Shown here one piece after another: positions 17,540 through 54,234 of a stretch of 64,000 bases of DNA. The DNA comes from Acididesulfobacillus acetoxydans (lineage in GTDB: Bacteria > Bacillota > Desulfitobacteriia > Desulfitobacteriales > Desulfitobacteriaceae). Below the pieces are notes generated by a model that did not search any database, was not told where the DNA came from, and saw nothing but the letters and a program-made list of their open reading frames with translations. The DNA lies in the NCBI RefSeq assembly GCF_902729405.1, contig NZ_LR746496.1:3224001-3288000 (forward strand). Direction: 5' to 3'. Position 1 is the first letter of the stretch; each line of letters begins with the position of its first letter. Made by a program: the position numbers and the translations under genes.

Positions 17540-17600
17540 ATTCAACTACCCCTGACTAAAGTCAGAGGATTGCGGCTTTCCTCCACCGGGTCCGGCCCAG
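17540..17600 (-). ncRNA. Right-end hairpin, putative omega (re)RNA scaffold end
   Basis: TnpB proteins use an RNA read from the 3' end of tnpB through the right end, with the guide taken from flanking DNA. Here the end holds a 9-bp stem (17549-17568) and is followed on the minus strand by GTAACCAATCCTGTCGACG of ldh, which would be the guide. Inferred from the family; no RNA evidence. Confidence 0.4.
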
Positions 17601-18840
17601 TATCATTGGAATCCACATCAGGGACGGTTGAAACGCGCCCCGTAATCGTCCGGCCCTGCCGGGCGACCAACGTTCTAAGCCTTACATTACGTCCGCCTAC
17701 CAAGTCAGCATGCAACGTATAACCGCAAGCTTCGCAGGTGAAGAGCAGTCCCTTTCCTGGCCGGTTGTTCTTGCTCGTATGCTCGCAACGGGGGCATCCT
17801 TGGCTTGTATAATGGGCATCCTGGCGGGTAGCGTACCCTCCGTACAGCGATGACTTATAGAGTATTTTGCTATGGAGATCAGCAAACGCCCATTGCTCCG
17901 CTTGGCGGCGTTCCTCTGTGTCTTTACGCTTCGTATTGATCTTTACCCGTATATGAGTTAAGTCTTCAATTCCCACCAGAACCTGGGGTTGGGCGATCTT
18001 GCGGCTTAGCCGGTGGTTCACATCGGAGGTTAACCGTCTCTCTCGCCTGCTTAAAGCCGCTAACCGGCGTTTAGCTGAACGAGTGCCTTTCTCCTGGAGC
18101 CGCTTTCTTAGCCGCTGCAAGTGCCGTTTCTTATGATGGATAGGCGAACCCTTGACAAAGATTGGCTTTTCACCGGTACCAACCACCGCCAGGTAGCGCA
18201 TCCCGACATCAACACCCTGCACTTGAGTCATATCGTTTAAGTCAACGCTTTGCTCACGTGTGATCGGGACGATCAGATATAATGCCTTGCGTCTTTTATC
18301 ATACCAGAGCTTGGCAGTGCCAATTTTCCACTCGCCCGAACGCAACCGCTCAACGTGAGGAGTCCACCCCTCATAAGCAACGCGAACTCGGCCTTCCAAT
18401 GTATTGACCGAGGCCGTTTGGTTCTTGCCGAACGAATAATCCCTGCCGTAGACTATTTCAGTCGTGCGCGATTTGAATTCGGGAGCTTTCTCCAAACCGT
18501 GGTAGTATTTCTTGGTGTACCCAAGTTTGCGATGCTCGGCGTTTTGTTTTATTTTTGTCCACTCTCCTTGGTAAGTGGACGCGACTCTGCGAATCGCCGA
18601 TTGAGCCAACTGAGACGGAAGATTATACCGGATACGCAATTCTCTGTAGAGCAGATCGTTTAACTTTCGCTTATTAGCGCGCTTGTCAAGCTGGGTAAAA
18701 GCGTATCGACTAACATAGTTCATCGCATCCCTGTAGGAGTCCATCGTGCGGAGTAGCAGTGCTTTTTGTTCGTAGTTTGCGGAAAGTTTCAGTTTTATAG
18801 ACAACGTGAGACTGTCTTTAACTACATAGGGTTCATTCAT
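17542..18840 (-). CDS. tnpB: RNA-guided nuclease TnpB (IS605 OrfB family)
   Basis: 432 residues. The RuvC residues are all present: D211 in GVDVG, E292 in GIEDL and D379 in HADLVGGRN. The zinc ribbon between has CPRC and CEAC. The N-terminal OrfB helix-turn-helix region is intact. The start ATG (18838-18840) has AAGGGGGTG upstream. TnpB cleaves DNA under guide RNA and keeps the element in place after excision. It looks functional; mobility would need a TnpA supplied in trans. Confidence 0.9.
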   Translation of the reverse strand: MNEPYVVKDSLTLSIKLKLSANYEQKALLLRTMDSYRDAMNYVSRYAFTQLDKRANKRKLNDLLYRELRIRYNLPSQLAQSAIRRVASTYQGEWTKIKQNAEHRKLGYTKKYYHGLEKAPEFKSRTTEIVYGRDYSFGKNQTASVNTLEGRVRVAYEGWTPHVERLRSGEWKIGTAKLWYDKRRKALYLIVPITREQSVDLNDMTQVQGVDVGMRYLAVVGTGEKPIFVKGSPIHHKKRHLQRLRKRLQEKGTRSAKRRLAALSRRERRLTSDVNHRLSRKIAQPQVLVGIEDLTHIRVKINTKRKDTEERRQAEQWAFADLHSKILYKSSLYGGYATRQDAHYTSQGCPRCEHTSKNNRPGKGLLFTCEACGYTLHADLVGGRNVRLRTLVARQGRTITGRVSTVPDVDSNDTGPDPVEESRNPLTLVRGS

Positions 18841-18939
18841 TATTTCACCCCCTTCCACCCCTTCCTAAATTATACAAAACAATGGTTGAAGATGTAAAGG
18901 GGCGGCCTTTCCCCTCCTGAATGAATTCAGAAGTATCCA

Positions 18940-36088: not shown

Positions 36089-37723
36089 ATGGGTTTAGCA
36101 GGTCTCTTTCGTGGCGTTGTTTCTTTATCGCTCATGGGCAGCCTTTTAGCCCTGGGGATCTTGTTCATCCAGCGGCTGTTCCGGCAGAAGCTCAGTACCC
36201 ATTGGCATTACGCCCTTTGGTTTGTGCTGATTTTGCGGTTACTCATCCCCTGGACACCGCCCAGTTCATTCAGTGCATTTAATCCCTGGTTGCCCCTGCA
36301 GCAAACCCTACATTTTCGACCCTACCCTCCTCATCCTCACCCCACACAAATCTCGCACCCACACTACCGCCCCCCCACACGACCCAACCTCTGCCGGGAA
36401 GTAGTCCTCGCTCAGCCCACTCCGCCGGGAACCTCCCCAGCCCAGCCCCGACCGGTCAAACATTCGGGCAAAACTTCGGCACAGCCGCTCTTGTCTGGTT
36501 GGCTGGAGTTTTGGGTTGCGCTACATTTTCTTACACGAACTGAGCCATCTAAAAAGACGAGACCACTGGGTCAATGCCGGGGTTACGTTGGTACAAGTCA
36601 TCTATTGGTTTAATCCGCTCATCGGGTACACGCTCCGGCACATGAAGCAGGATTGTGAAATGGCCTGTGACGCCACGGCCCTGGCTTCCGTCAGGCCGGA
36701 AGAACATAAGCAATATGGGCAGACGGTTATCCGTCTTTTGCAACTCCTATCTGAACCTCATTGGGCTCTGGGAACGATTGGTTTCGCCAATAAATTTAAC
36801 AAGAGGATAATTATCATGATTTTGACTTTCAAAAAAGCAACCGTGAAGTGGACGGTCGCAGCCCTGGCTTTGACCTTGGTCGTGGGGTGTTCGAGCCTGA
36901 ACAATCCTATTGCCTCAACGGTCAGCGCCCCAGGCCAAACCGCTAATGCCGCGACTCATCTGACCAAGACTACAAGCGCCAATCACACACAGTCACCGGG
37001 CCTAACCCCGCCAACAGCAAACCCTGCAACCAGTAACCACACAAAATCACCATACATAACCGCATCTGTATCAAATTCCGCGACTCCTAATTCTCAGGCC
37101 GGAACTCCGAATCCACAAAGGAGTATTGAAACCCCACACGGGGTGGTATGGAACCCCAGTCCATCAATGAATAGCAACGGCTCGCCTGTACCTTCGCTTC
37201 TTACTCCGTTTTCTTTGTATCTAAGCCCGAAAAACACCAGACAATTACAGACATCGTCTGCTGAGAAGATTCTCACTCTACCGTTGACAGAAAATACTCC
37301 GGTAGGTCAATTCTGCGTTTACCTCAGTAATTACTTTTACAGTGACAATTGGATCGTTTATTCCATATATCTCATGAAGCCGAGGATGGCTCAGCCCTAT
37401 ATCAGCCAATTGCGTGCAGTAAATTTAGATAACAAAAGGGATGTGTTGATCACAGACTTTCACGATGCAGGTGGAAATTTCTTCGCTGTAGGTTCGGACA
37501 ATAACTTGATTTTATTCTCACAAAAGTCTCCAGGCCCTGGTGTGACCTATCTCAAGCAGGTAAATATGTTTAATCTTGACAACGGTCAAAAAGAGCCGGT
37601 TGACACAAAGGAGCTGAAAGTAATCCCTGAGAAAAGTATTTTAGAATACCCAAAAGATGGTCAGACACTGACTTTTCAATTGCAATTAAGTTCTAGCATA
37701 TACGCATTTGATTCAACTACCCC
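36089..37723 (+). pseudogene. BlaR1-like M56 metallopeptidase gene, deleted and frameshifted
   Basis: The first part (36089-36510) gives the N-terminal helices (LMGSLLALGILFIQRLF, THWHYALWFVLILRLLIPW) and a proline/histidine-rich linker. From about 36516, in another frame, come the zinc motif FLHELSHLKRRD, HMKQDCEMACDA, a membrane helix (VKWTVAALALTLVVGC) and a C-terminal domain of about 300 residues that is not penicillin-binding. The DNA between the second helix and HELSH is missing. The gene end is interrupted by the tnpB-type element at 37711, beyond which it would stop within a few codons. Confidence 0.75.
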
Positions 37724-38777
37724 TGACTAAAGTCAGAGGATTGCGGCTTTCCTCCACCGGGTCCGGCCCAGTATCATTGGAATCCACATCAGGGACGGTT
37801 GAAACGCGCCCCGTAATCGTCCGGTCCTGCCGGGCAACCAACGTTCTAAGCCTTACATTACGTCCGCCTACCAAGTCAGCATGCAGCGTATAACCGCAAG
37901 CTTCGCAGGTGAAGAGCAGTCCCTTTCCTGGCCGGTTGTTCTTGCTCGTATGCTCGCAACGGGGGCATGCTTGGCTTGTATAATGGGCATCCTAGCGGGT
38001 AGCGTACCCTCCGTACAGCGATGACTTATAGAGCGCATAGCGACATCAACACCCTGCACTAGAGTCATATCGTTTAAGTCAACGCCTTGCTCACGTGTGA
38101 TCGGGACGATCAGATATAACGCCTTGCGTCTTTTATCATACCAGAGCTTGGCAGTGCCAATTTTCCACTCGCCCGAACGCAAGCGCTCAACGTGAGGAGT
38201 CCACCCCTCATAAGCAACGCGAACTCGGCCTTCCAAATGTATTGACCGAGGCCGTTTGGTTCTTGCCGAACGAATAATCCCTGCCGTAGACCATTTCAGT
38301 CGTGCGCGATTTGAATTCGGGAGCTTTCTCCAAACCGTGGTAATATTTCTTGGTGTACCCAAGTTTGCGATGCTCGGCGTTTTGTTTTATTTTTGTCCAC
38401 TCTCCTTGGTAAGTGGACGCGACTCTGCGAATCGCCGATTGAGCCAACTGAGACGGAAGATTATACCGGATACGCAATTCTCTGTAGAGCAGATCGTTTA
38501 ACTTTCGCTTATTAGCGCGCTTGTCAAGCTGGGTAAAAGCGTATCGACTAACATAGTTCATCGCATCCCTGTAGGAGTCCATCGTGCGGAGTAGCAGTGC
38601 TTTTTGTTCGTAGTTTGCGGAAAGGTTTAGTTTTATAGACAACGTGAGACTGTCTTTAACTACATAGGGTTCATTCAGTATTTCACCCCCTTCCACCCCT
38701 TCCTAAATTATACAAAACAATGGTTGAAGATGTAAAGGGGCGGCCTTTCCCCTCCTCAATGAATTCAGAAGTATCCA
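37711..38777 (-). mobile_element. Deleted copy of the tnpB-type IS element
   Basis: Nearly identical to 17540-18939 apart from a ~334-base internal deletion (junction near 38034), a one-base insertion at about 38236 and scattered changes. Both ends, including the right-end hairpin, are kept, so it could still be moved by a transposase in trans. Confidence 0.88.
37730..38678 (-). pseudogene. tnpB: tnpB remnant
   Basis: Frames of TnpB on both sides of the deletion: residues up to the GVDVA block and the zinc ribbon/HADLVGGRN end. The aspartate block reads GVDVA and leads straight into the deletion; the middle with the catalytic glutamate is missing. Not functional as a nuclease. Confidence 0.85.
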
Positions 38778-39544: not shown

Positions 39545-39876
39545 GTGCGCATGACTTTACCTTTAAACGTTTGCCCTTGGATACTCTGGATTTCAATCCC
39601 ATTGTCTCGAGCGGCCGGCACCTGTTTACTGACAACATTGTTTTGGGTATTCACGCCCAACGCGCTGTGACCGTCCAGAATACGCTTGAGTTCATCAATT
39701 TCAGTCTCTGAGCGTTCATCCTCTGCCAAGACGTTCATCAAAAGGAGATTAAGAGAACCGTCATAGACCTTTTTGAAAAACAATCTTCGCTCTTCTCTTC
39801 TGTATTCTTCTCGGGTCAACATGGGTCTGCAAACAGGGGAGATGAACTTTTTTCAATGGCAATTGCAAATGTTTAC
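39545..39876 (-). pseudogene. Chimeric relic: BlaI C-terminus joined to NAGPA start
   Basis: The first part (MLTREEYRREERR...TEIDELKRIL) equals the C-terminal half of the BlaI at 53851-54234, and continues in frame into GHSALGVNTQNNVVSKQVPA, which equals the linker of the BlaR1-NAGPA protein at 51693. The whole M56 part is missing, and a frameshift lies near 39840. It is the remnant of a third blaI-blaR1-NAGPA locus. Confidence 0.8.
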
Positions 39877-40174
39877 GACAGCCCCGGCTGCTTTAAAATT
39901 CCAAAGGCAAATAGCCGTCATCGGCGCCAATATAGAAGACTAAGTCCATCATCTTTTCCCGAACCTTGGTGGCCGGTAGATTGTCTTAAGTCGAATTTAG
40001 CGAGACGACTGGCTGCGGCAAGCAAAAAGCGGCAGTGCCATTGAGGTTCAGAGCTCCTATGCTATCCATGAGAGAAACTCAGGGTGCGAATACAAAGATT
40101 ACCTGAGCGCAAGCTAAACCCCGCATTTTGCCGATGGGAGGCTCAATTTGCCCACATCTGCCAAATTGCCACAG

Positions 40175-40273: not shown

Positions 40274-40375
40274 CTTTCCCTATCAGTATCAGAAGTGCAA
40301 CCCCGGCTTCCCCTGCGCGAAGCCCGGCGCTCACCCCGTTTCCTTATATTCCAGCGGAAGGAGGATGGCTCTCAA

Positions 40376-40819
40376 GTGCGATCGATCCCGGTGGAATCTG
40401 ACAACAAATTCTCTCTCGAACGGGCTGCCTTGCTCTTGGCTTTAACCGAAACCCGGCAGGAGGAAAATGACTTAAGAGAACATTACACCGTTCAGGAGAG
40501 AATCACCTGTGGCGTTACCGAAACCGGCGGAACGGTTGCCGCTTTACAGCATACGGGAAAACTGACAAATTCTGTGCTCTCAACCGGCCTTAACACCGGA
40601 GTGATCCACAAAGACGCCAAACAGATCCACGCGTTGGTACACGCGGCTTTGGAAGCCAGCAACAGCATTTTTATTCATACCAACGGCAATGCCAGTTTTG
40701 CCCTGAAAATCGGTTTGACCACCGACGGAGACTGGCTGGCCGTGGCCATCTTCGGTCGTTCCTCCCTGCACCCTCTCTCCGAGCATTGCCGGGTAGGATT
40801 GGGCTACATGCATCTCTGA
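40376..40819 (+). CDS. HutP-family RNA-binding antiterminator
   Basis: 147 residues, the same length as HutP of Bacillus subtilis (148). HutP binds UAG-rich RNA with histidine and magnesium and prevents termination. Aligned blocks: HALVHAALEAS (HutP HALYHATMEAL) with metal-type histidines H85 and H89, GDWLAVAIFG (HutP GDWIAVSLYG) and SEHCRVGLGYMHL (HutP LEHETFGVGINHI) with H137. The start is GTG at 40376 behind AAGGAGG; the frame stays open upstream to 40148, but that part crosses the terminator and is untranslated. It is the first gene of the transcript leading to nif, where it would act as hutP does on hut. Confidence 0.82.
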   Translation: MRSIPVESDNKFSLERAALLLALTETRQEENDLREHYTVQERITCGVTETGGTVAALQHTGKLTNSVLSTGLNTGVIHKDAKQIHALVHAALEASNSIFIHTNGNASFALKIGLTTDGDWLAVAIFGRSSLHPLSEHCRVGLGYMHL

Positions 40820-41554: not shown

Positions 41555-41872
41555 ATGAAAATGATCAGAGCGATTATCCGTCCGGAAAAAGCGGACACCG
41601 TCGCTGAAGCTTTAGCCGCGAACGGGCTCCCCTCCCTGACGAAAGCGCACGTTTTCGGACGGGGAAGAACCAAAGGTATCCGCATAGGGGATGTGGTCTA
41701 TGATGAGTTTCCCAAAATCCTGCTCCTCATGGTGGTGGAGGATGAGCAGGTGGATCAGGCGGTAGGCATCATCAACACCACCGCGCGCACAGGAACCATG
41801 GGAGACGGCAAGATCTTTATCTCCCCGGTGGAAGAAACCTATACCATCAGCAGTGGAAGTAAAGGGTTATAG
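41555..41872 (+). CDS. nifI1: PII-like nitrogenase regulator NifI1
   Basis: 105 residues of the GlnB/PII family, NifI1 subgroup, which with NifI2 binds and switches off nitrogenase when fixed nitrogen rises. MIRAIIRPEKADTVAEALA opens the fold; GRTKGIRIG is a short T-loop type region; TGTMGDGKIFISPVEE is the PII C-terminal signature. The start is ATG 41555 behind AGGAGGTAA. An in-frame GTG at 41450 with a perfect AAGGAGGTGAT site would add 35 basic residues not found in the family. Confidence 0.92.
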   Translation: MKMIRAIIRPEKADTVAEALAANGLPSLTKAHVFGRGRTKGIRIGDVVYDEFPKILLLMVVEDEQVDQAVGIINTTARTGTMGDGKIFISPVEETYTISSGSKGL

Positions 41873-42058: not shown

Positions 42059-42442
42059 ATGAAAGAAATCATGGCTTTTGTGCGCCGGCATCAGGTGCCG
42101 GCCACCAAAAAGGCCCTGGAGGACGCCAACTTCCCGGCCCTGACGATTCAAAGTGTGGAAGGGCGGGGAAAACAGGGCGGGATCGGCGGTTGGGCTGCCG
42201 AAGTCGATCCGGAACTCAATCGGGTCCTCACAGCGGAAACGGCCGCTGAGGCCCGCATCAACTGGATTCCCAAAAGGATGTTGACTTTGGCAGTGCAAGA
42301 CGAAGAAGTGCAAAAGGCAGTACAAATCATCATCAGCGCCAACCAGACGGGGCATATGGGCGACGGCAAAATCTTTGTCTGTTCGCTGGCAGACACGCTC
42401 CGAGTGCGCACGGGCGAAAACGGCCCGGCGGCAGTGACTTGA
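42059..42442 (+). CDS. nifI2: PII-like nitrogenase regulator NifI2
   Basis: 127 residues, partner of NifI1. KEIMAFVRRHQVPATKKAL and ALTIQSVEGRGKQGGIGG are followed by the longer T-loop typical of NifI2 (ELNRVLTAETAAEARINWIP) and TGHMGDGKIFVCSLAD. The NifI1-NifI2 pair responds to 2-oxoglutarate and ATP in known systems. It normally acts on NifDK, which is not encoded here. Confidence 0.92.
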   Translation: MKEIMAFVRRHQVPATKKALEDANFPALTIQSVEGRGKQGGIGGWAAEVDPELNRVLTAETAAEARINWIPKRMLTLAVQDEEVQKAVQIIISANQTGHMGDGKIFVCSLADTLRVRTGENGPAAVT

Positions 42443-42566: not shown

Positions 42567-43424
<858 letters not shown>

Positions 43425-43482: not shown

Positions 43483-43660
43483 GTGATAGTCATGGAAGAC
43501 ACGGGACCCGGCTCGGCGGCACGCCTTCAGCTCAGCCAAAAAGCCGTGGAAGAAGTTTTAAAACTCTATCCGGAAAAAGCCCGTAAGAACCGGAGCACTC
43601 ATTTGACGGTCAAGGACGGGAACTGCCCCGAGTGCACCCTCAAATCCAATGTCAAATCCG
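43483..43660 (+). pseudogene. nifD: nifD stub (first ~58 codons)
   Basis: AAAGGA precedes a GTG; the frame reads SQKAVEEVLKLYPEKARKNR, STHLTVKDG and LKSNVKS, the start of the MoFe protein alpha chain, which should go on IPGIIT-RGCAYAG. Instead the DNA passes at about 43655-43660 into nifE, out of frame. All three cluster ligands and the whole active site are missing. Confidence 0.85.
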
Positions 43661-44896
43661 ATAACCGACGCGGCCCATCTGATTCACGGTCCCATTGCCT
43701 GTGCCGGCAATTCCTGGGATAACCGGGGAGCCCTCTCCACCGGCTCCCAACTTTACCGGCGCGGCTTTACCACAGATTTAGGTGAAAACGATGTCGTCTA
43801 CGGGGGAGAAGAAAAACTCTATCAGGCCATCCTTGAGATCTCCGCCAAACATCGACCCCAGGCGATTTTCGTCTACAGTACCTGTGTCTCCGCTCTCATC
43901 GGGGATGATTTAGCCGGAGTCTGTGCCCGGGCCCAGAAAAAAGTCTCCCTTCCCGTCATCCCAGTCGATGCTCCAGGCTTCCTGGGGGACAAGAACATCG
44001 GCAACCGCATTGCCGGTGAGACGCTTTGGCAGCGAGTGATTGGCAGCAAGAACGCGGGCGCCCCGAAAATACCCCGTTCCATTAATTTAATCGGAGAATA
44101 CAACATCGCCGGGGACCTAGGCGGGATCCTGCCGGATCTAACGAAGCTGGGCATTAAGCTGCAGACGGCGATTACCGGAGATGCCCGTTATGCCGATTTG
44201 ACTCAAGCCCACCGGGCCGCTCTCAATGTCCTGGTCTGCTCGAAAAGTCTGACAAATCTGGCCTGTTCTTTGCAACAGCAGTGGCAAACTCCTTATATTG
44301 AAGCCTCCTTTTACGGCATTGAGGACACCTCCCAGGCCTTGCGCAACATCGCGCGGGGTTTGGGTGACCGGGGATTGTCGGGCCGGACTGAGGAATATAT
44401 CCGCCGCCAAGAGAAAGAAACCCGGCAGGCGATCGCCCCTTACCGGGAGCGCCTGCAAGGCAAAAGAGCCGTTCTGTTTACGGGAGGGGTGAAAACATGG
44501 TCCATGGTTTCCGCTTTGACCGAACTCGGAATTACCATTCTGGCCGGAGGGACGCAGAATTCCACACCTGCGGATTTCGAACGCATGAAGGCCCGGCTGG
44601 ATCCGGCAGCCCGGATTATCGAGGACACCAGCGCCGTCGGATTTTTGACTCTGATCCGCGAGAAGAAGCCGGATTTGCTGGTCGCCGGAGGCAAAATCAA
44701 GTACTTGGCCCATAAAATGCGCTTACCGTTCCTGGATATCAACCATGGACGGAAACGTCCTTATGCCGGGTATCCGGGCATGATAACCCTGGCGGAAGCG
44801 ATAGCCAGAACAGTTTTCAGCCCGGTCTGGGATCTCAGCCGCCGGCCCTATCCCCCCGCCCGCGGCGGCGAAGGAGGAAATGAAAATGTCGTATGA
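43649..44896 (+). pseudogene. nifE: nifE lacking its 5' end
   Basis: 415 codons of the NifE subunit of the cofactor scaffold NifEN: NPITDAAHLIHGPIACAG and SWDNRGALSTGSQLYRRGFT are the NifE signature, VYSTCVSALIGDD holds the third cluster cysteine, and GGVKTWSMVSALTELG the C-terminal domain. Roughly the first 40-50 residues, including the first conserved cysteine, are gone. An ATG at 43649 inside the nifD stub could allow translation, but a truncated NifE is unlikely to hold its cluster. The remainder is free of stops, so the deletion may be recent. Confidence 0.85.
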
Positions 44897-46463
44897 AGCA
44901 CAACGCCACCTTGAATGCCACCCGGAATATCGTCCGGAAAGCCACCCCAGGGGCGAGCGCACCGAACGCCATTATCAGGGAAACCCGCAAAAAAACAGCC
45001 CCTCCCTGGGAGCGACTCTGGCCTTTCTGGGCATGAACGGCATGCTGGCCCTCCTGCACGGCTCCCAAGGCTGTTCCACTTTCATCCGCCTGCAACTCTC
45101 CCGGCATTTCAAAGAACCCATCCCTCTGAACTCCACCGCTATGACTGAGGAAAATCTGGTCTTTGGCGGCTGGGAACAGCTTCAGAAAGGAATCACCCAA
45201 GCCGTGGAAAAATTCCACCCGGAAATTGTCGGTGTCATGAGTTCAGGTCTCAGTGAAACCATGGGTGAAGACATGGCCGCCGCCCTGCGGACTTGGCGCA
45301 GAGACCGGCCGGAACTGGCCGGAGTACCGGTTGTGACTGTCAGTACCCCGGACTATATAGGATCCATGCAAGAGGGCTATCGCCTGGCGGTGACCGCTCT
45401 GCTCGCTTCTCTCCGGCCGAAAGAGCCGGAGAAAGGAACGGGGACGGAAAGGGTGGAGACGGAAAGCCCGGCAAGTGAACTCGTTCAACTAAAGTTGAAT
45501 GAACCTACCCCGGAAATCAGAGACCAGGGATGCCGGAAGTCAGAGATCAGAGGCCAGAGTAAATGTACTTTTAGGTCAGAGCCCGGAAACCAGAGTGAAT
45601 GTACTCTTACCTCCGCCTTTTCCCGGAAAACTGCCCTTGTCCCAGACGTAATCCTTCTACCCGGCTGTCACCTGACACCCGCCGACGTGGAGGAGTTGAA
45701 AGAAACCGTATCTCTTTTTGGCCTGCAACCACTCGTCCTGCCGGATTTGTCCACATCCTTGGACGGTCACCTGGAATCTGAACCCAGCGCTGTCGTCCAG
45801 GGAGGAACCACGCTCTCCCATCTGAAACGCCTGCCCCAAGCCGTGGCTGTTTTTTCCTTCGGCTTGAGCCTGGTTCAACCGGGAGATTATCTCCGGGACA
45901 CTTATGGAGTTCCTCATTACCCCATCCCTTCCCTGACAGGTTTAGAGGCTACCGATCGCTTCTTGCTGGCCCTGGCCTCTTTCAGCGGTCAACCGGTGCC
46001 GGAACCGTTGTTGCGGCAAAGAAGCCGCCTGCTCGATACCATGGCAGATTATCACGACCGGCTGGCCGGCCTGCGCGTGGCCCTGGCTTTAGAATCGGAC
46101 CTGTTATATTCTCTGAGTTTAGCCTTGGCCGAAACCGGGGCCGAGATCTCCCTGGCCTTGGCAGCCACTCCTGAGGGGAGAAAGAATTTCCCGGCCACAA
46201 TCCCCTTCCGGGTAGGAGATTTAGAGGACCTGGAAGACTTGGATAACTTGGGGGAATTGGCGCATCCTGCCACGCCCGGAAAATCCTTTAATCTGATCAT
46301 TGCCAATTCCAACGGACGTCAGGCGGCAAAAATCTTGCAATGCCCCCACCTGCGGGCCGGATTGCCGGTCTTCGACCGCGCCGGCTACCCTCAAAAACTC
46401 TGGACCGGGTACCGGGGCAGTCAAAATTTCCTTTTCGATGTTCTAAACACTATGTCTGGATAG
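44886..46463 (+). CDS. nifN: Nitrogenase cofactor scaffold subunit NifN
   Basis: About 525 residues. It forms the NifEN scaffold on which the FeMo cofactor precursor matures. NSPSLGATLAFLGMNGMLAL and LLHGSQGCSTFIRLQLSRHF with the cluster cysteine, EENLVFGGWEQL, GLSETMGEDM and VPVVTVSTPDYIGS are NifN motifs. An insert of about 60 residues at 185-245 is rich in repeated units (SEIRGQSKCT, GNQSECTLTS). ATG 44886 lies 8 bases after AAGGAGG; it overlaps the nifE stop by 11 bases. Confidence 0.92.
   Translation: MSYEAQRHLECHPEYRPESHPRGERTERHYQGNPQKNSPSLGATLAFLGMNGMLALLHGSQGCSTFIRLQLSRHFKEPIPLNSTAMTEENLVFGGWEQLQKGITQAVEKFHPEIVGVMSSGLSETMGEDMAAALRTWRRDRPELAGVPVVTVSTPDYIGSMQEGYRLAVTALLASLRPKEPEKGTGTERVETESPASELVQLKLNEPTPEIRDQGCRKSEIRGQSKCTFRSEPGNQSECTLTSAFSRKTALVPDVILLPGCHLTPADVEELKETVSLFGLQPLVLPDLSTSLDGHLESEPSAVVQGGTTLSHLKRLPQAVAVFSFGLSLVQPGDYLRDTYGVPHYPIPSLTGLEATDRFLLALASFSGQPVPEPLLRQRSRLLDTMADYHDRLAGLRVALALESDLLYSLSLALAETGAEISLALAATPEGRKNFPATIPFRVGDLEDLEDLDNLGELAHPATPGKSFNLIIANSNGRQAAKILQCPHLRAGLPVFDRAGYPQKLWTGYRGSQNFLFDVLNTMSG
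45480..45615 (+). repeat. Degenerate coding repeat in nifN
   Basis: Imperfect units around CAGAGTAAATGTACT and CAGAGTGAATGTACT with preceding GGTCAGAG/AAATCAGAG words. They stay in frame and lie in a variable loop between the first and second NifN domains. Confidence 0.65.
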
Positions 46464-46475
46464 GAGGAATGTATC

Positions 46476-46901
46476 ATGATTAGGGTTGCTTTTTGCAGTC
46501 AAAGCGGACAGTATGTCGATGCTCATTTTGCCTCCTGCCCTTATCTTTTCATTTATGAGATAGGCCCTCAGGGCAGCAGGCAGTTGGAACAAATCAGCTT
46601 TTCCGGGACGGAACAGGGAGAAGACGATCGGGTGGCCAGGCGCCTGCAAGCTTTGCGAGGTTGTTCTTTTCTCTATTGCGGCCAAATTGGGGGTCCGGCG
46701 GCGGCCCGCTTAGTACAGAACGGTATCTATCCCCTTAAAGTTGAAGCGCACACAACGATCGCTGCAGCGGGGGACCGTCTGGAAAAGCTTTTGCAAACCA
46801 ACCCGCCTCCCTGGCTGAAGAAGCAGATGCTCCGGGAACCCGTGGTCGCGCGGGAAACGTACACCGACGTCGGGGAAGATGTAATGCTCAAAATCCCATA
46901 A
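46476..46901 (+). CDS. nifX: NifX-type cofactor carrier
   Basis: 141 residues of the NifX/NifB-C/VnfX family, which binds the cofactor precursor and passes it to NifEN. MIRVAFCSQSGQYVDAHFAS is typical, followed by RRLQALRGCSFLYCGQIGGP and a C-terminal half with GIYPLKVEAHTTI. AGGAATGT precedes the ATG; 12 bases separate it from nifN. Confidence 0.87.
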   Translation: MIRVAFCSQSGQYVDAHFASCPYLFIYEIGPQGSRQLEQISFSGTEQGEDDRVARRLQALRGCSFLYCGQIGGPAAARLVQNGIYPLKVEAHTTIAAAGDRLEKLLQTNPPPWLKKQMLREPVVARETYTDVGEDVMLKIP

Positions 46902-46926
46902 TTTACGATTGAAGGAGGCTCCGCAC

Positions 46927-47772
46927 ATGGCTAGTCATTGTCTGGAAACCGGAAACAGAATTTACACCGCTACGCCCGAGCCAACGGAGCATCCTTGTTT
47001 TTCCCCGGACGGACACGGTCGAGCCGGGCGGATTCACCTGGCGGTAGCAGCGGAATGCAATATCTCCTGCAACTACTGTGTGCGCAAATATGATTGTGCG
47101 AATGAGTCCCGCCCCGGAGTGACCAGCAAGCTTATCGGGGCTGAGGAAGCCATACGGGTAGTACAGGAAGCAAAACTCTCTTCCCTGGGAGCCTATCTGC
47201 ACGTGGCCGGAATTGCCGGCCCCGGTGAGCCGCTCGCCAACCCGGAAACCTTTGCTACCCTGGCACTGCTCAAAGACAAGTTTCCGGAAATGAAACGCTG
47301 TCTGAGCAGCAACGGTCTGTTGTTGCCGGAAAAATTGCCGGAACTCCTGGCCTTGGGACTTTCCCATATTACTGTGACTCTCAATACGCTGGACACGCCT
47401 TCGGCCCTACAGATCTACGGTTATGTACGCTGGCAGGGACAGACCCTGATCGGGCGGCCGGCAGTCACAATGCTTCTGGAGAATCAGCTGCTGGGAATCG
47501 AACAAGCAGTCCGGGCCGGGCTCCACGTCAAAGTCAACACCGTGGTAATTCCCGGAATCAATGACACCCGGCTCACGGTCCTGGCCCGGGAGATCAAGCA
47601 AAGAGGGGTGGAAATTCATAACCTGCTCCCCCTTATCCCTCAGGGAAAGTTTGCCTTGCGCCCGGCGCCCCGTCCCGCCGATATGCACCATTACCGCCAA
47701 GAATTGGGCCGCGTTCTTCCCCAGATGAGCCACTGCCGGCAATGCCAGGCCGATGCCATCGGCCTAGTGTGA
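46927..47772 (+). CDS. nifB: FeMo-cofactor biosynthesis radical SAM protein NifB
   Basis: 281 residues, the short NifB type without a NifX domain. The radical SAM cluster motif is C44-x3-C48-x2-C51 (AECNISCNYC), followed by VRKYDCANESRPG, AGIAGPGEPLANPE and the C-terminal CRQCQADAIG. It makes the 8Fe-9S-C core NifB-co. ATG 46927 lies 6 bases after AAGGAGGCT; a TTG at 46909 is inferior. Confidence 0.95.
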   Translation: MASHCLETGNRIYTATPEPTEHPCFSPDGHGRAGRIHLAVAAECNISCNYCVRKYDCANESRPGVTSKLIGAEEAIRVVQEAKLSSLGAYLHVAGIAGPGEPLANPETFATLALLKDKFPEMKRCLSSNGLLLPEKLPELLALGLSHITVTLNTLDTPSALQIYGYVRWQGQTLIGRPAVTMLLENQLLGIEQAVRAGLHVKVNTVVIPGINDTRLTVLAREIKQRGVEIHNLLPLIPQGKFALRPAPRPADMHHYRQELGRVLPQMSHCRQCQADAIGLV

Positions 47773-47813
47773 TAAAAACTATGGTATGAGACTAAGCTGG
47801 GCAGGTGAAAGTG

Positions 47814-48935
47814 ATGAATGACAATATCATACTCTGTGACACAACTTTACGGGACGGAGAGCAGACTCCGGGGGTGGCCTTTACCTATGCGGAAAGGGAA
47901 ATGATCGCCCGGGCTCTAACGGACGCCGGTATCGATGAGTTGGAAGTAGGTGTTCCGGCCCTGGGAACGGATGAGGTAGACGTTATCCGACAACTGGTCT
48001 CCCTGCGCTTGCCCGTACGCATGCTCACTTGGAACCGGGCGGTGAAAGCCGATCTGGAAGCCAGTTTCCGCAGCGGCTGCGCCGGGGTGTCCATTTCCGT
48101 TCCGGTCTCGGAACAGCAGATGAGCCGCAAATTGAAAAAAAGCCCGGCCTGGGTGCTGGAACAGATGGGACAATGCGTTTTACGGGCCAAACAAGATGCG
48201 GATTACGTCTGTGTGGGCTTGGAGGATGCCAGCCGGGCTTCGGCGGATTTTCTGCTGAAGGTTTGCCGGGAGGCGGAACAACTGGGAGTTAATAGAATCC
48301 GACTGGCCGATACCCTGGGCATCCTGACGCCTCTGGAACTCGCCCACCGCTTGAGCGGTCTGCCGTCAGAACTCAGCGTTCCTCTGGAGTTTCATGCTCA
48401 CAATGATCTGGGCCTGGCCACAGCCAATGCCGTAACCGCAGTTCAATGCGGATTCCGCGCCGTCAGTGTCACGGTGGGCGGCTTGGGAGAAAGGGCCGGA
48501 AACGCCGCTCTGGAAGAAGTGGCTGTCATCTTAAAACAGATGTTACAAAAGAAGGTCCGCTTCAATCTCCGTCGCTTGGGAACCATCTGTTTCATGCTCA
48601 GCCTGGCGACTCACAGGGAAATTCAAAGAAATAAACCCATTTCCGGACAAGACGTTTTCACGCATACCTCTTCCCTGCTCATTGACGGCATAAAGAAAGA
48701 CCCCGCCAATTACGAACCTTTTCCTCCGGAAAAGGTATCACGCCGGCATTCCCTGGCTCTCGGCAAATATTCAGGGGTTAAAACTCTAAACCGGTTGCTG
48801 GAGCAAAACGGCATCTTTTTGAATAACGAACAAATCGACGAGACGATCAAAAAGGTCAGGGCCCTGAGTACGCGTTTCAAAAGGCCCCTACGATCACAGG
48901 AAATTATCGAGAATTGTTGCCGGGCCAGGCACTGA
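47814..48935 (+). CDS. nifV: Homocitrate synthase NifV
   Basis: 373 residues. It condenses acetyl-CoA with 2-oxoglutarate to homocitrate, the organic ligand of the FeMo cofactor. LCDTTLRDGEQTPGVAF is the family start, EFHAHNDLGLATANAV the metal-binding HxH and NDLG region, and VTVGGLGERAGNAALEEV the second signature. ATG 47814 behind AGGTGA is preferred to the GTG at 47805. It is the last gene of the cluster; no terminator of confidence follows. Confidence 0.94.
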   Translation: MNDNIILCDTTLRDGEQTPGVAFTYAEREMIARALTDAGIDELEVGVPALGTDEVDVIRQLVSLRLPVRMLTWNRAVKADLEASFRSGCAGVSISVPVSEQQMSRKLKKSPAWVLEQMGQCVLRAKQDADYVCVGLEDASRASADFLLKVCREAEQLGVNRIRLADTLGILTPLELAHRLSGLPSELSVPLEFHAHNDLGLATANAVTAVQCGFRAVSVTVGGLGERAGNAALEEVAVILKQMLQKKVRFNLRRLGTICFMLSLATHREIQRNKPISGQDVFTHTSSLLIDGIKKDPANYEPFPPEKVSRRHSLALGKYSGVKTLNRLLEQNGIFLNNEQIDETIKKVRALSTRFKRPLRSQEIIENCCRARH

Positions 48936-49070: not shown

Positions 49071-50045
49071 CTATTTAGGCATGACCACAAAACCCGTCGC
49101 AACATAGCGCTCCTGAAAAATATCGCACGGACGGTTAATCACTTTTCCCTGATAAACCATTTCCGCGGAAGACCCGCCGTCTAGGTTGACGGCATTAATC
49201 GCGTGGTATTCCAGAAAGACGTTCATCAAATCGCGCCCAGTCGCTCCCCAACTCCAACCCGGCTCGCGCCCGTCAATAACGACGAAGATAATCGTTCCAT
49301 CCGCTGTCTGCCCAATTCCCGTCCTGGGGGCAATACCGATACCGCCATCTCCCTCGATAACCGGTGTCCCATTCTTGATCAGAGTCGGACCATAGAAAGT
49401 CACGGCTTCTTGAATGTGCTTGGCGACCAGTTCGTCCGCCGACATGGGGGCTATGATCAATTTTCCCTGGCTGTCAATGCCAATCACTTGGTGCACAACG
49501 GCCTTTCCGGCACTGTTATAGACGAGCTTACCGTCGTGGACGGTCAGCCCTTCGGGAAAAGACCCGTTCCCTTTACCATTCGGATCATTGAAACCGCCGG
49601 CGTTGATTCCGGCAAGCGCCCCGGTTTGCTTGACGAAACTCGTTATCCGTTCTCCCGCTACTCCCGGCTGATTGGTCATGACAGCTTTGACCCGTTTCGG
49701 ATCTTTAATCAGCATGACCTTCCCTTTGAAAGAATGACCTTGGATGTTCTGGATTTCAATGCCGCTATTCGGGTCGGTCGCCACCTGCTCCCTGACCACG
49801 TGACTTTGGGTGTTCACTCCCAAACTGTCGTACTCACGTGTTATCTCATCAATTTGAGCCTGGGACAGAAAAGCCCGCACCACCTGCGGGTGGCGGGACA
49901 GCGCAATTGAACCCACTGTCATGACCTTCAGGGCTTGAAAAGGACCATAAAAAACGATGAGGGGTGCCAGTAAGGCAGCAAAGACAATATTGAAACCCAC
50001 AAAACTCATGAACCTTTTCCCGCTGAATCTTACCCTGCGTTTCAT
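49071..50045 (-). CDS. Membrane-anchored NAGPA-type phosphodiester glycosidase
   Basis: 324 residues. An N-terminal membrane anchor (FVGFNIVFAALLAPLIVFYG) is followed by a helical linker and a NAGPA domain (Pfam PF09992, named for the human enzyme that removes GlcNAc from phosphodiesters): ITSFVKQTGALAGINAGGF, LTVHDGKLV, TFYGPTLIKNG and AINAVNLDGGSSAEMVY. In bacteria such proteins are thought to act on wall or capsule polymers outside the cell. The ATG at 50043-50045 has AGGAGG upstream. The domain is almost identical at DNA level to that at 51693-53717. Confidence 0.88.
   Translation of the reverse strand: MKRRVRFSGKRFMSFVGFNIVFAALLAPLIVFYGPFQALKVMTVGSIALSRHPQVVRAFLSQAQIDEITREYDSLGVNTQSHVVREQVATDPNSGIEIQNIQGHSFKGKVMLIKDPKRVKAVMTNQPGVAGERITSFVKQTGALAGINAGGFNDPNGKGNGSFPEGLTVHDGKLVYNSAGKAVVHQVIGIDSQGKLIIAPMSADELVAKHIQEAVTFYGPTLIKNGTPVIEGDGGIGIAPRTGIGQTADGTIIFVVIDGREPGWSWGATGRDLMNVFLEYHAINAVNLDGGSSAEMVYQGKVINRPCDIFQERYVATGFVVMPK
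49135..49722. repeat. ~590-bp direct repeat, copy 1 (NAGPA domain)
   Basis: Matches 51772-52359 at an offset of 2637 bases, with only a few percent differences by eye. Similarity drops sharply at the linker end. Confidence 0.9.
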
Positions 50046-50133
50046 TTTCGGCCCTGTCCTCCTGCACAAAAGACTCCACATACTCCGCTTTTCCAGCCCT
50101 AAGCTCCTGATCTTCCCATGTTAAATGCCACAT

Positions 50134-51692: not shown

Positions 51693-53717
51693 TTAGCTTG
51701 CTTTTCCCGCCTGCGGCATCACGACAAAGGCGGTGGGCACACGGCGTTCCCCAAAAATATCCCACAGGTGGTTAATCACTTTTCCCTGATAAACCATTTC
51801 CGTGGAGGACCCGCCGTCTAAGTTGACAGCATTAATCGCGTGGTATTCCAGAAAGACGTTCATCAAATCGCGCCCAGTCGCTCCCCAACTCCAAGTCGGC
51901 TGGCGCCCGTCAATAACGACGAAGATAATCGTTCCATCCGCGGTCTGCCCAATTCCCGTCCTGGGGGCAATACCGATACCGCCATCTCCCTCGATAACCG
52001 GTGTCCCATTCTTGATCAGAGTCGGACCATAGAAAGTCACGGCTTCTTGAATGTGCTTGGCGACCAGTTCGTCCGCCGACATGGGGGCTATGATCAATTT
52101 TCCCTGGCTGTCAATGCCAATGACTTGGTGCACAACGGCCTTTCCGGCACTGTTATAGACGAGCTTACCGTCGTGGACGGTCAGCCCTTCGGGAAAAGAC
52201 CCGTTCCCTTTACCGTTCGGATCATTGAAACCGCCGGCGTTGATTCCGGCAAGCGCCCCGGTTTGCTTGACGAAGCTCGTTATCCGTTCTCCCGCTACTC
52301 CCGGCTGATTGGTCATGACAGCTTTGACCCGTTTCGGATCTTTGATCAGCATGACTTCACCTTTAAACGTTTGCCCTTGGATACTCTGGATTCTAATCCC
52401 ATTGTTCGGAGCGGCCGGCACCTGTTTACTGACAACATTGTTTTGGGTGTTCACGCCCAATGCGCTGTGACCGTCCTTGCCGGAACCCGAACCGGAGTCT
52501 GCGCCGGCTGACTTGAGATTGGCACCCTGGGCCTGACTTGTGTGCAAAGACTCTGCGGAGCTATTGGGAGCCCTTGTCAACAGGATGACACCCAGAACCA
52601 TTAGCAGGGCCACTCCCAGTGCAACTCGCATTGCGGAACCTTTCTTGAAAGAAGAGATCATGATAATTCTCCTTTTCATTCTCGATGGTTTTCCCAGGAT
52701 ACCCATGCCTCCCGGAAAACCCTGAGGCTTAGCGATCTGCAGCAGATGAATCATTGTATAGCCATAATGGGAACGTTCCGTGGGATCCAGATGGGATAGC
52801 ACCCGTGCATCACACGCCATCTCGATATCCTGGCGCATGAGGTAGAAAGCGTACCAAACCAGGGGATCGAACCAATAGATCCCTTTTAAGAAGACCATAA
52901 GCCCGTTAACCAGAAAATCCCTTTGCCTATAATGCACCAACTCGTGCAGGAAGATATGCTTCAACTCATGCGGATTTATTTGGTCCGGGAGTCCGGCGGG
53001 GAGCAAGAGAGTGGGCCTGAGGAAGCCGAAAAGCACAGGCATCCGAACCAGGGGACTGATGCGCAGACGAATATCGGCCTTAAGATTGAGAATGCGCTTG
53101 GATCGCTCAAGCAGCTCTCTTTCGAATTCTTGAGGTTCCCGAGCGGTTTTCTCGACTCTCAGAAACAAACGCCCGTTCACGAATATAACATAGAGCCCAA
53201 AAAGCATTGCCCCTGCCAGCCACACAAGCAAAGCGGACAGAGCCATCTGGCCGGCGTCTACGGGCCGCCCCATGGTTTGCGCCATGGTATGTCCTCGGCT
53301 GTCACCTGGCCTAGCAACGGCTTCTCCCTGGCCTTTCCCTCCGGTTTGACCTGATCGGGAGAGAGGGTCGGTCAGTCCCTGACCCGAAACGGCGACCCGG
53401 GGCTGAGTGATGCCTGAGGCAGGAACGGCTGCCGCCCCGATCTTCTCCGTGAAGTTCTTTCCTGTTGGAGCCAGAAGATATGTTTTTGCAAGCACATCTC
53501 CGAACGCCGGTACAATATTCAGCACGCTGAGAGAACTTGCGGGGGCAAGCGGGATGGCTAAGCGTACCAGGAGAAGAAACCAGATCCAATAATGCCAGGA
53601 AGGCGGCATCTGACTCTTAAAGAGCCATTTCAGCCCCAAAATAATCGGCACGATGAGACAAGCCATTAGTGAAGAATACAATACCCAGTGAAAAGGCGTC
53701 ATCAGAAGGTCCAACAC
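51693..53717 (-). CDS. BlaR1-type M56 metallopeptidase fused to a NAGPA domain
   Basis: 674 residues. Residues 1-360 are a BlaR1/MecR1-like membrane peptidase: several helices, the gluzincin motif IFLHELVHYRQRD and MRQDIEMACDARVL. A further helix (ALGVALLMVLGVILLTRA) leads to an outer domain. In BlaR1 this is a penicillin-binding sensor; here a serine/glycine linker is followed by a NAGPA phosphodiester glycosidase domain (about 430-670; AGINAGGF, LDGGSS). Start GTG at 53717 with GAAGG upstream. blaI lies just upstream on the same strand. It is probably a sensor of a sugar-phosphate polymer or glycan signal; that is inference. Confidence 0.88.
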   Translation of the reverse strand: MLDLLMTPFHWVLYSSLMACLIVPIILGLKWLFKSQMPPSWHYWIWFLLLVRLAIPLAPASSLSVLNIVPAFGDVLAKTYLLAPTGKNFTEKIGAAAVPASGITQPRVAVSGQGLTDPLSRSGQTGGKGQGEAVARPGDSRGHTMAQTMGRPVDAGQMALSALLVWLAGAMLFGLYVIFVNGRLFLRVEKTAREPQEFERELLERSKRILNLKADIRLRISPLVRMPVLFGFLRPTLLLPAGLPDQINPHELKHIFLHELVHYRQRDFLVNGLMVFLKGIYWFDPLVWYAFYLMRQDIEMACDARVLSHLDPTERSHYGYTMIHLLQIAKPQGFPGGMGILGKPSRMKRRIIMISSFKKGSAMRVALGVALLMVLGVILLTRAPNSSAESLHTSQAQGANLKSAGADSGSGSGKDGHSALGVNTQNNVVSKQVPAAPNNGIRIQSIQGQTFKGEVMLIKDPKRVKAVMTNQPGVAGERITSFVKQTGALAGINAGGFNDPNGKGNGSFPEGLTVHDGKLVYNSAGKAVVHQVIGIDSQGKLIIAPMSADELVAKHIQEAVTFYGPTLIKNGTPVIEGDGGIGIAPRTGIGQTADGTIIFVVIDGRQPTWSWGATGRDLMNVFLEYHAINAVNLDGGSSTEMVYQGKVINHLWDIFGERRVPTAFVVMPQAGKAS
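51772..52359. repeat. ~590-bp direct repeat, copy 2 (NAGPA domain)
   Basis: Partner of 49135-49722. The linker next to it (52350-52477) also recurs in the relic at 39549-39684. Confidence 0.9.
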
Positions 53718-53856: not shown

Positions 53857-54234
53857 CTCCTTATTCCCGCCTTTTTCCAGAATACGCTTGAGTTCGTCGA
53901 TTTCAGTCTCTGAAAGTTCGTCCTCTGCCAAGATGTTCATCAGAAGGAGATTGAGAGAACCGTCATAGACCTTTTCGAGAAACGACCTTCGCTCTTCTCT
54001 TCTGTATTCTTCCCGGGTCAACATGGGCCTGCACACAAAAGGAGATGAACTTTTGTCAATGGCAATTGCTTTCTTGCTGACCAGCCTGCTGATAAGCGTG
54101 TAGACCGTGGTCGGCTTCCAACCCGTGCTTGAGCGCAAGATCTCGACGACTTCCATGGCTGTGATGGGAGCTTTTTCCCACAGTACGTTCATGACCTGCC
54201 ATTCCGCATCCGAAATTCTCGAAGTTTTATTCAA
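53851..54234 (-). CDS. blaI: BlaI/MecI-type repressor
   Basis: 127 residues. Winged helix (ISDAEWQVMNVLWEKAPITA, TVYTLISRLVSKKAIAI) and a C-terminal dimerisation helix (LSETEIDELKRILEKGG). Such repressors are inactivated by cleavage when the partner M56 protease senses a signal. TTG start at 54232-54234 behind GAGGTGATG. A promoter with an overlapping inverted repeat lies upstream. Confidence 0.93.
   Translation of the reverse strand: MNKTSRISDAEWQVMNVLWEKAPITAMEVVEILRSSTGWKPTTVYTLISRLVSKKAIAIDKSSSPFVCRPMLTREEYRREERRSFLEKVYDGSLNLLLMNILAEDELSETEIDELKRILEKGGNKEG

Follow-up and report, generated by a model that had tools for sequence, protein, structure and literature searches.

The 64,000-nucleotide stretch analysed here (the window; C1:3224001-3288000) belongs to the genome of Acididesulfobacillus acetoxydans, a bacterium of acidic waters, which is assembled as one contig of 4,520,225 bases. 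It carries a nif operon, the features of which are listed in Table 1. By its NifE, the closest named relative is Peptococcaceae bacterium CEB3 (96% identity, the next best reaching 74%), and CEB3 is likewise the reported nearest relative of A. acetoxydans INE, with an amino-acid identity of 89.3%, the INE genome consisting of one chromosome of 4.52 Mbp (PMC8982180). The nif operon of CEB3 (LDXJ01000058, locus L004) is intact, with open reading frames of 491 aa for nifD, 472 aa for nifK and 467 aa for nifE, all scoring over the curated cut-offs (791, 663 and 575 bits, respectively). The two operons share the order nifI1-I2-H-[D-K]-E-N-X-B-V, with a HutP-family gene upstream, and their proteins are 80-98% identical for nifI1, nifI2, nifH, the remaining part of nifE, nifN, nifB and nifV. 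What sets them apart is a segment of 3,059 bp, running from nifD codon 57 to nifE codon 56, which is missing from the window.

Table 1. Features of the nif locus (positions in the window; identities are to the CEB3 counterparts)
Feature	Position	Strand	Evidence
HutP-family gene, upstream of the nif operon	40358..40819	+	PF09021, E 7.1e-34; aligned to CEB3
nifI1, PII-type regulator	41555..41872	+	PII-family models, under curated cut-offs; 89% identity, 105 aa
nifI2, PII-type regulator	42059..42442	+	PII-family models, under curated cut-offs; 91% identity, 127 aa
nifH, open, full length	42597..43424	+	TIGR01287, 460 bits (cut-off 394); 98% identity, 275 aa
nifD remnant, 56 codons and one base	43492..43660	+	TIGR01282 positions 2-40; 76.8% identity to CEB3 NifD 1-56
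Deletion junction, 3 bp	43658..43660	+	nifD arm L004:4942-4944 = nifE arm L004:8001-8003; 3,059 bp gone
nifE, 5'-truncated	43649..44896	+	TIGR01283 from position 55; 96% identity, residues 4-414
nifN, open	44880..46463	+	TIGR01285, 405.7 bits (cut-off 326.8); 80% identity
nifX, open, C-terminal tail unaligned with CEB3	46476..46901	+	TIGR02663, 116.7 bits (cut-off 112)
nifB, radical-SAM part	46909..47772	+	TIGR01290 positions 10-275 of 441; 285.9 bits, under cut-off 343.65
nifV-like homocitrate synthase	47805..48935	+	TIGR02660, 438.8 bits, under cut-off 462.9; 91% identity

A first-pass annotation of this DNA had described all the other nif genes as intact. This holds to the extent that nifI1, nifI2, nifH (present by its profile), nifN, nifX, nifB and nifV are all open and have nearly the length of their CEB3 counterparts: nifV encodes 376 aa in both, and NifB is 90% identical over 287 aa to a CEB3 product of 289 aa. 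The description has to be qualified for nifB and nifV, which remain under the curated NCBIfam cut-offs, and for NifX, which is 84% identical to that of CEB3 over the first 123 of its 141 aa, its tail being unaligned. As for the set formed by nifE, nifN and nifB, only nifN is both untruncated and over its cut-off. NifN also contains a charged insert of some 60-70 residues (residues ~184-253), located between the two parts that match the model; the nifN reading frame of CEB3 is also long (510 aa). No molybdate transport gene is found among the four open reading frames checked downstream of CEB3 nifV, which encode a polysaccharide deacetylase, a protein without Pfam match, an ABC-transporter ATPase and an ABC-2 membrane protein.

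The HutP-family gene, of the RNA-binding antiterminator type and with a longest reading frame beginning at 40148, lies upstream of the nif genes both here and in CEB3. A HutP match is present on the same strand, upstream of nifE, in 22 of the 25 named loci (L004-L028), from Desulfosporosinus to Heliobacterium; in each of the other three (L018, L021 and L026), about 5 kb or less lies upstream of the nifE match. One possibility is that this gene is a conserved regulator of these nif operons. The surroundings of the operon also contain repeated sequences. Two phosphodiester-glycosidase (NAGPA) genes, at 49071-50081 and 51693-53717, have 746 bp in common at 92% identity, one of them being preceded, within a single reading frame, by a BlaR1-type M56 peptidase domain. 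Upstream of the nif operon, pieces at 39549-39866 match 52349-52476 (94%) and 53876-54069 (90%). Finally, 17540-18939 and 37711-38777 are two copies, 98% identical, of one element with what looks by eye like a transposase-type gene, the second copy lacking about 330 bp from its middle.

Between nifH and nifN, only two remnants are recognised, the beginning of nifD and a nifE truncated at its 5' end, in different frames. The former matches positions 2-40 of the 466 of TIGR01282 (E 1.8e-5), and the reading frame that follows it matches the nifE model TIGR01283 from position 55, with 552 bits for a cut-off of 505. When aligned to CEB3, the window tracks nifD up to L004:4944 and resumes after L004:8003, the three bases CCG being common to the two arms. 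The missing 3,059 bp, which are not a multiple of three, comprise 435 of the 491 nifD codons (57 onward), the whole of nifK, the nifK-nifE gap and nifE codons 1-56, as counted from the first possible start of CEB3 nifE, a mechanically chosen GTG at L004:7833. Profiles and alignment thus bear out the initial proposal that nifK is deleted in full, together with most of nifD and the beginning of nifE, with two corrections. The homologue of the CEB3 nifD start is the ATG at 43492 rather than the GTG at 43483, and the two genes are not fused into one reading frame, as the nifE frame is one base off that of the stub. The stub frame runs past the junction, out of register with nifE, to a stop that ends at 43722, while the nifE frame now opens at an ATG within the nifD stub, at 43649.

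The junction is compatible with illegitimate recombination. Since at least 3 bp are shared in 5.8% of random nifD-nifE joins, the observed microhomology is weak evidence for any mechanism. A deletion between long repeats of the two paralogues is unsupported, only 3 bp being common to the arms. The direct repeats and the recombinase expected of a programmed excision are not found either, the junction showing the same 3 bp and the nifH-nifN interval only the two remnants. We also considered whether nifE had been acquired from a donor resembling CEB3, through a homologous exchange on one side only, with the junction as its end point. Identity to CEB3 is of 97% in the first 100 bp past the join and of 86-96% over the following eleven windows of 100 bp, nifH being at 90-97%; as no block of raised identity follows the junction, this origin is rejected.

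The apparent deletion could also be an assembly error, by which nifD would have been joined to nifE and the 3 kb between them dropped from the sequence of a cell that has the full operon. Such a mis-join had been envisaged from the start, nifD and nifE being paralogues, and the completeness of the genome is scored at 97.71%, which leaves some room for it. However, the arms have no more than 3 bp in common and diverge beyond them on both sides, and the lost DNA is absent from the rest of the assembly. Furthermore, the genome of A. acetoxydans INE was assembled with HGAP from PacBio RSII reads and corrected with Pilon using 250-bp paired MiSeq reads (PMC8982180). If the present genome is that of INE, as it appears to be, these reads should span such a gap and expose it, making a false 3-kb join unlikely. 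We therefore regard an assembly error as improbable.

The search of the genome for nifD and nifK that the first-pass annotation had called for finds neither outside the nifD stub. The nitrogenase component 1 family (PF00148) has three matches in the A. acetoxydans contig, of which NifE and NifN only are over the cut-off, compared with four matches over the cut-off in CEB3; the contig consequently contains no Vnf, Anf or Nfl subunit at this threshold. The third match (C1:3214733-3215191) is under the cut-off, at 19.2 bits, and lies in a reading frame which we take, from motifs seen by eye, to be D-2-hydroxyacid dehydrogenase-like. CEB3 NifD, used as a query, retrieves only the stub, over residues 1-57 (E 2.8e-21; 75% identity), and its paralogue NifE (35%), and CEB3 NifK retrieves only NifN and NifE, at 28-35% identity. 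Finally, the deleted DNA (3,056 bases as query) has no match in the genome, and the same query detects its counterpart in four out of four relatives, CEB3 included, down to 67% identity.

These results leave the suggestion that nifDK lies elsewhere in the strain without support, at least within the contig. A related scenario is that another replicon, outside the assembly, has received nifDK or carries a replacement for it, nitrogen fixation continuing with split genes. This is formally possible, because contigs not judged to be of Peptococcaceae were discarded during the INE assembly (PMC8982180), and a nifDK copy could have been among them. Against it, the contig holds no protein over the PF00148 cut-off besides NifE and NifN and, with a damaged NifE, nifDK located elsewhere should not by itself restore the usual cofactor assembly. 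We thus consider this scenario very improbable.

The damage to NifE can be specified by comparison with the NifEN structure, in which the O-cluster is bound by NifE Cys37, Cys62 and Cys124 (PMC13031127). On the basis of an alignment to 3PDI chain A, with the numbering corrected by 8 residues, the equivalents of Cys62 and Cys124 are retained in the window, and the equivalent of Cys37, which is Cys46 of CEB3 NifE, falls within the deleted part. By eye, a ribosome site is not apparent before the ATG at 43649, unlike for nifH, nifN and nifX. This is weak evidence against NifE synthesis, since none is close to the called nifE start of CEB3 either, and none is seen for nifB in the window. From the gene content, we infer that MoFe protein is not made and that NifE is absent or defective, its N-terminus and one O-cluster cysteine being missing; with the Cys37 equivalent deleted, cofactor assembly should fail too. 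The strain therefore probably no longer fixes N2. Ammonium can be produced from nitrate by A. acetoxydans (PMC10949509), so that, when nitrate at least is available, the bacterium should be able to do without N2 fixation.

To place this deletion among related bacteria, nifD and nifE were sought in a class sample of 62 genomes with a completeness of at least 90%. nifE is over its cut-off in 40 of them and nifD in 39, and the two lists differ by A. acetoxydans only, which is the single genome of the sample to have nifE without nifD over the cut-off; in two others (G028 and G061), both genes are slightly under their cut-offs. In a second, overlapping sample of 61 relatives, nifE is over the cut-off in 35, among which the nifE of the window alone begins at model position 55, all the others beginning at position 34 or lower. 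Not every relative has a spotless operon, as one of these others (G037) has a stop within its nifE match.

The age of the loss was approached through the amino-acid differences between the window and CEB3, polarised by two outgroup loci (L005 and L006), those that could not be polarised being dropped. There are 44 derived changes on the A. acetoxydans branch and 41 on that of CEB3 (p 0.83), and this lack of excess change in the remaining nif genes makes the loss look young. dN/dS is 0.13 across nine genes or parts; the nifD stub is above its neighbours, at 0.31, a value that is based on 55 compared codons only. The counts are uneven for nifB (8 changes on the A. acetoxydans branch and 2 on the other) and for nifE (2 and 8), and neither difference is significant (p 0.11 in both cases). 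Given neutral evolution since the loss, the 95% bound obtained with all genes confines it to roughly the final 10% of this branch; the bound is 2% with nifE alone and 19% with all genes but nifE. Such limits are valid only if no function was retained by the operon, and continued selection on what is left of it would equally predict an absence of decay.

Such a function can be imagined: NifH, NifB, NifN and the short NifE could have been kept for another purpose, for instance as an NifEN-type, NifDK-free reductase on which selection would still act. NifEN of Azotobacter is able to reduce N2 at its L-cluster (PMC11168457), the leftover genes are constrained, as indicated by the dN/dS given above, and nifE can be read without interruption from an ATG and scores over the cut-off of its model. 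If true, this would provide a living parallel to the NifEN-like ancestral nitrogenase that has been proposed. However, NifE no longer has the three O-cluster cysteines expected of such an enzyme, its Cys37 ligand being deleted; the ribosome site is not apparent before 43649, with the reservation that CEB3 nifE is in the same situation; and a recent loss accounts for the constraint without any new function. We accordingly give this possibility hardly any credence.

All these results are best explained by an ordinary loss-of-function deletion leaving a nifH-positive genome without nitrogenase. Judging from the sequence, a single and recent deletion of about 3.06 kb very probably removed the catalytic core of a once complete molybdenum-nitrogenase operon. 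It would have occurred in one step, by illegitimate rather than homologous joining of ends sharing 3 bp. The loss of nifDK would prevent the formation of MoFe protein, NifE being absent or defective, and the strain, deprived of N2 fixation, would live on combined nitrogen. The remaining nif genes would be passengers that have had too little time to decay. At the gene level, the recent loss of nitrogen fixation put forward initially is thus supported by the intact operon of the relative, the single deletion and the absence of excess change. It would represent a loss caught near its first step, apparently in the type strain of A. acetoxydans, with an intact relative for comparison. It is also a caution for genome surveys in practice: one that relied on nifH, nifE or nifN would score A. 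acetoxydans as an N2 fixer, because all three genes, truncated nifE included, pass their curated scores.

The nif deletion is not described in the literature, seen largely as listings, that was found on the species, on CEB3 and on nif loss or truncation. The words 'nitrogenase' and 'nitrogen fixation' have no occurrence in the main texts of PMC8982180, PMC10949509, PMC11471286 and PMC13188906, and the single 'nif' match, found in PMC10949509, seems to come from its list of references, where van Niftrik is a cited author. Three known situations can be compared with that of the window, and two of them share with it the absence of classical nifDK. In the third, that of heterocystous cyanobacteria, nifD is broken in the chromosome, as it is here, by a programmed rearrangement: the interrupting element, which carries its own recombinase, is excised between direct repeats. 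In the window, by contrast, genes are missing and the junction has three shared bases only. Heliophilum fasciatum is also without classical nifDK, but it is diazotrophic, with other NifDK-like proteins and without NifEN and classical NifH (PMC9147875); A. acetoxydans shows the reverse pattern. There is also a likeness in gene content with the 'T3' or pseudo-nifH genomes, in which nifH is present and nifD and nifK are not found; a survey of RefSeq counted 236 of these, 136 of them in Clostridia (PMC8597730). A. acetoxydans is a new case of this kind, a nifH-bearing genome without nifDK. Unlike in the 'T3' genomes, however, nifH of the window is over the equivalog cut-off and 98% identical to nifH of an intact operon, and it has been orphaned by a deletion, still standing beside nifN, nifX, nifB, nifV and part of nifE. 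What distinguishes the present case is the freshness of the event, together with its undamaged neighbours and its intact close relative.
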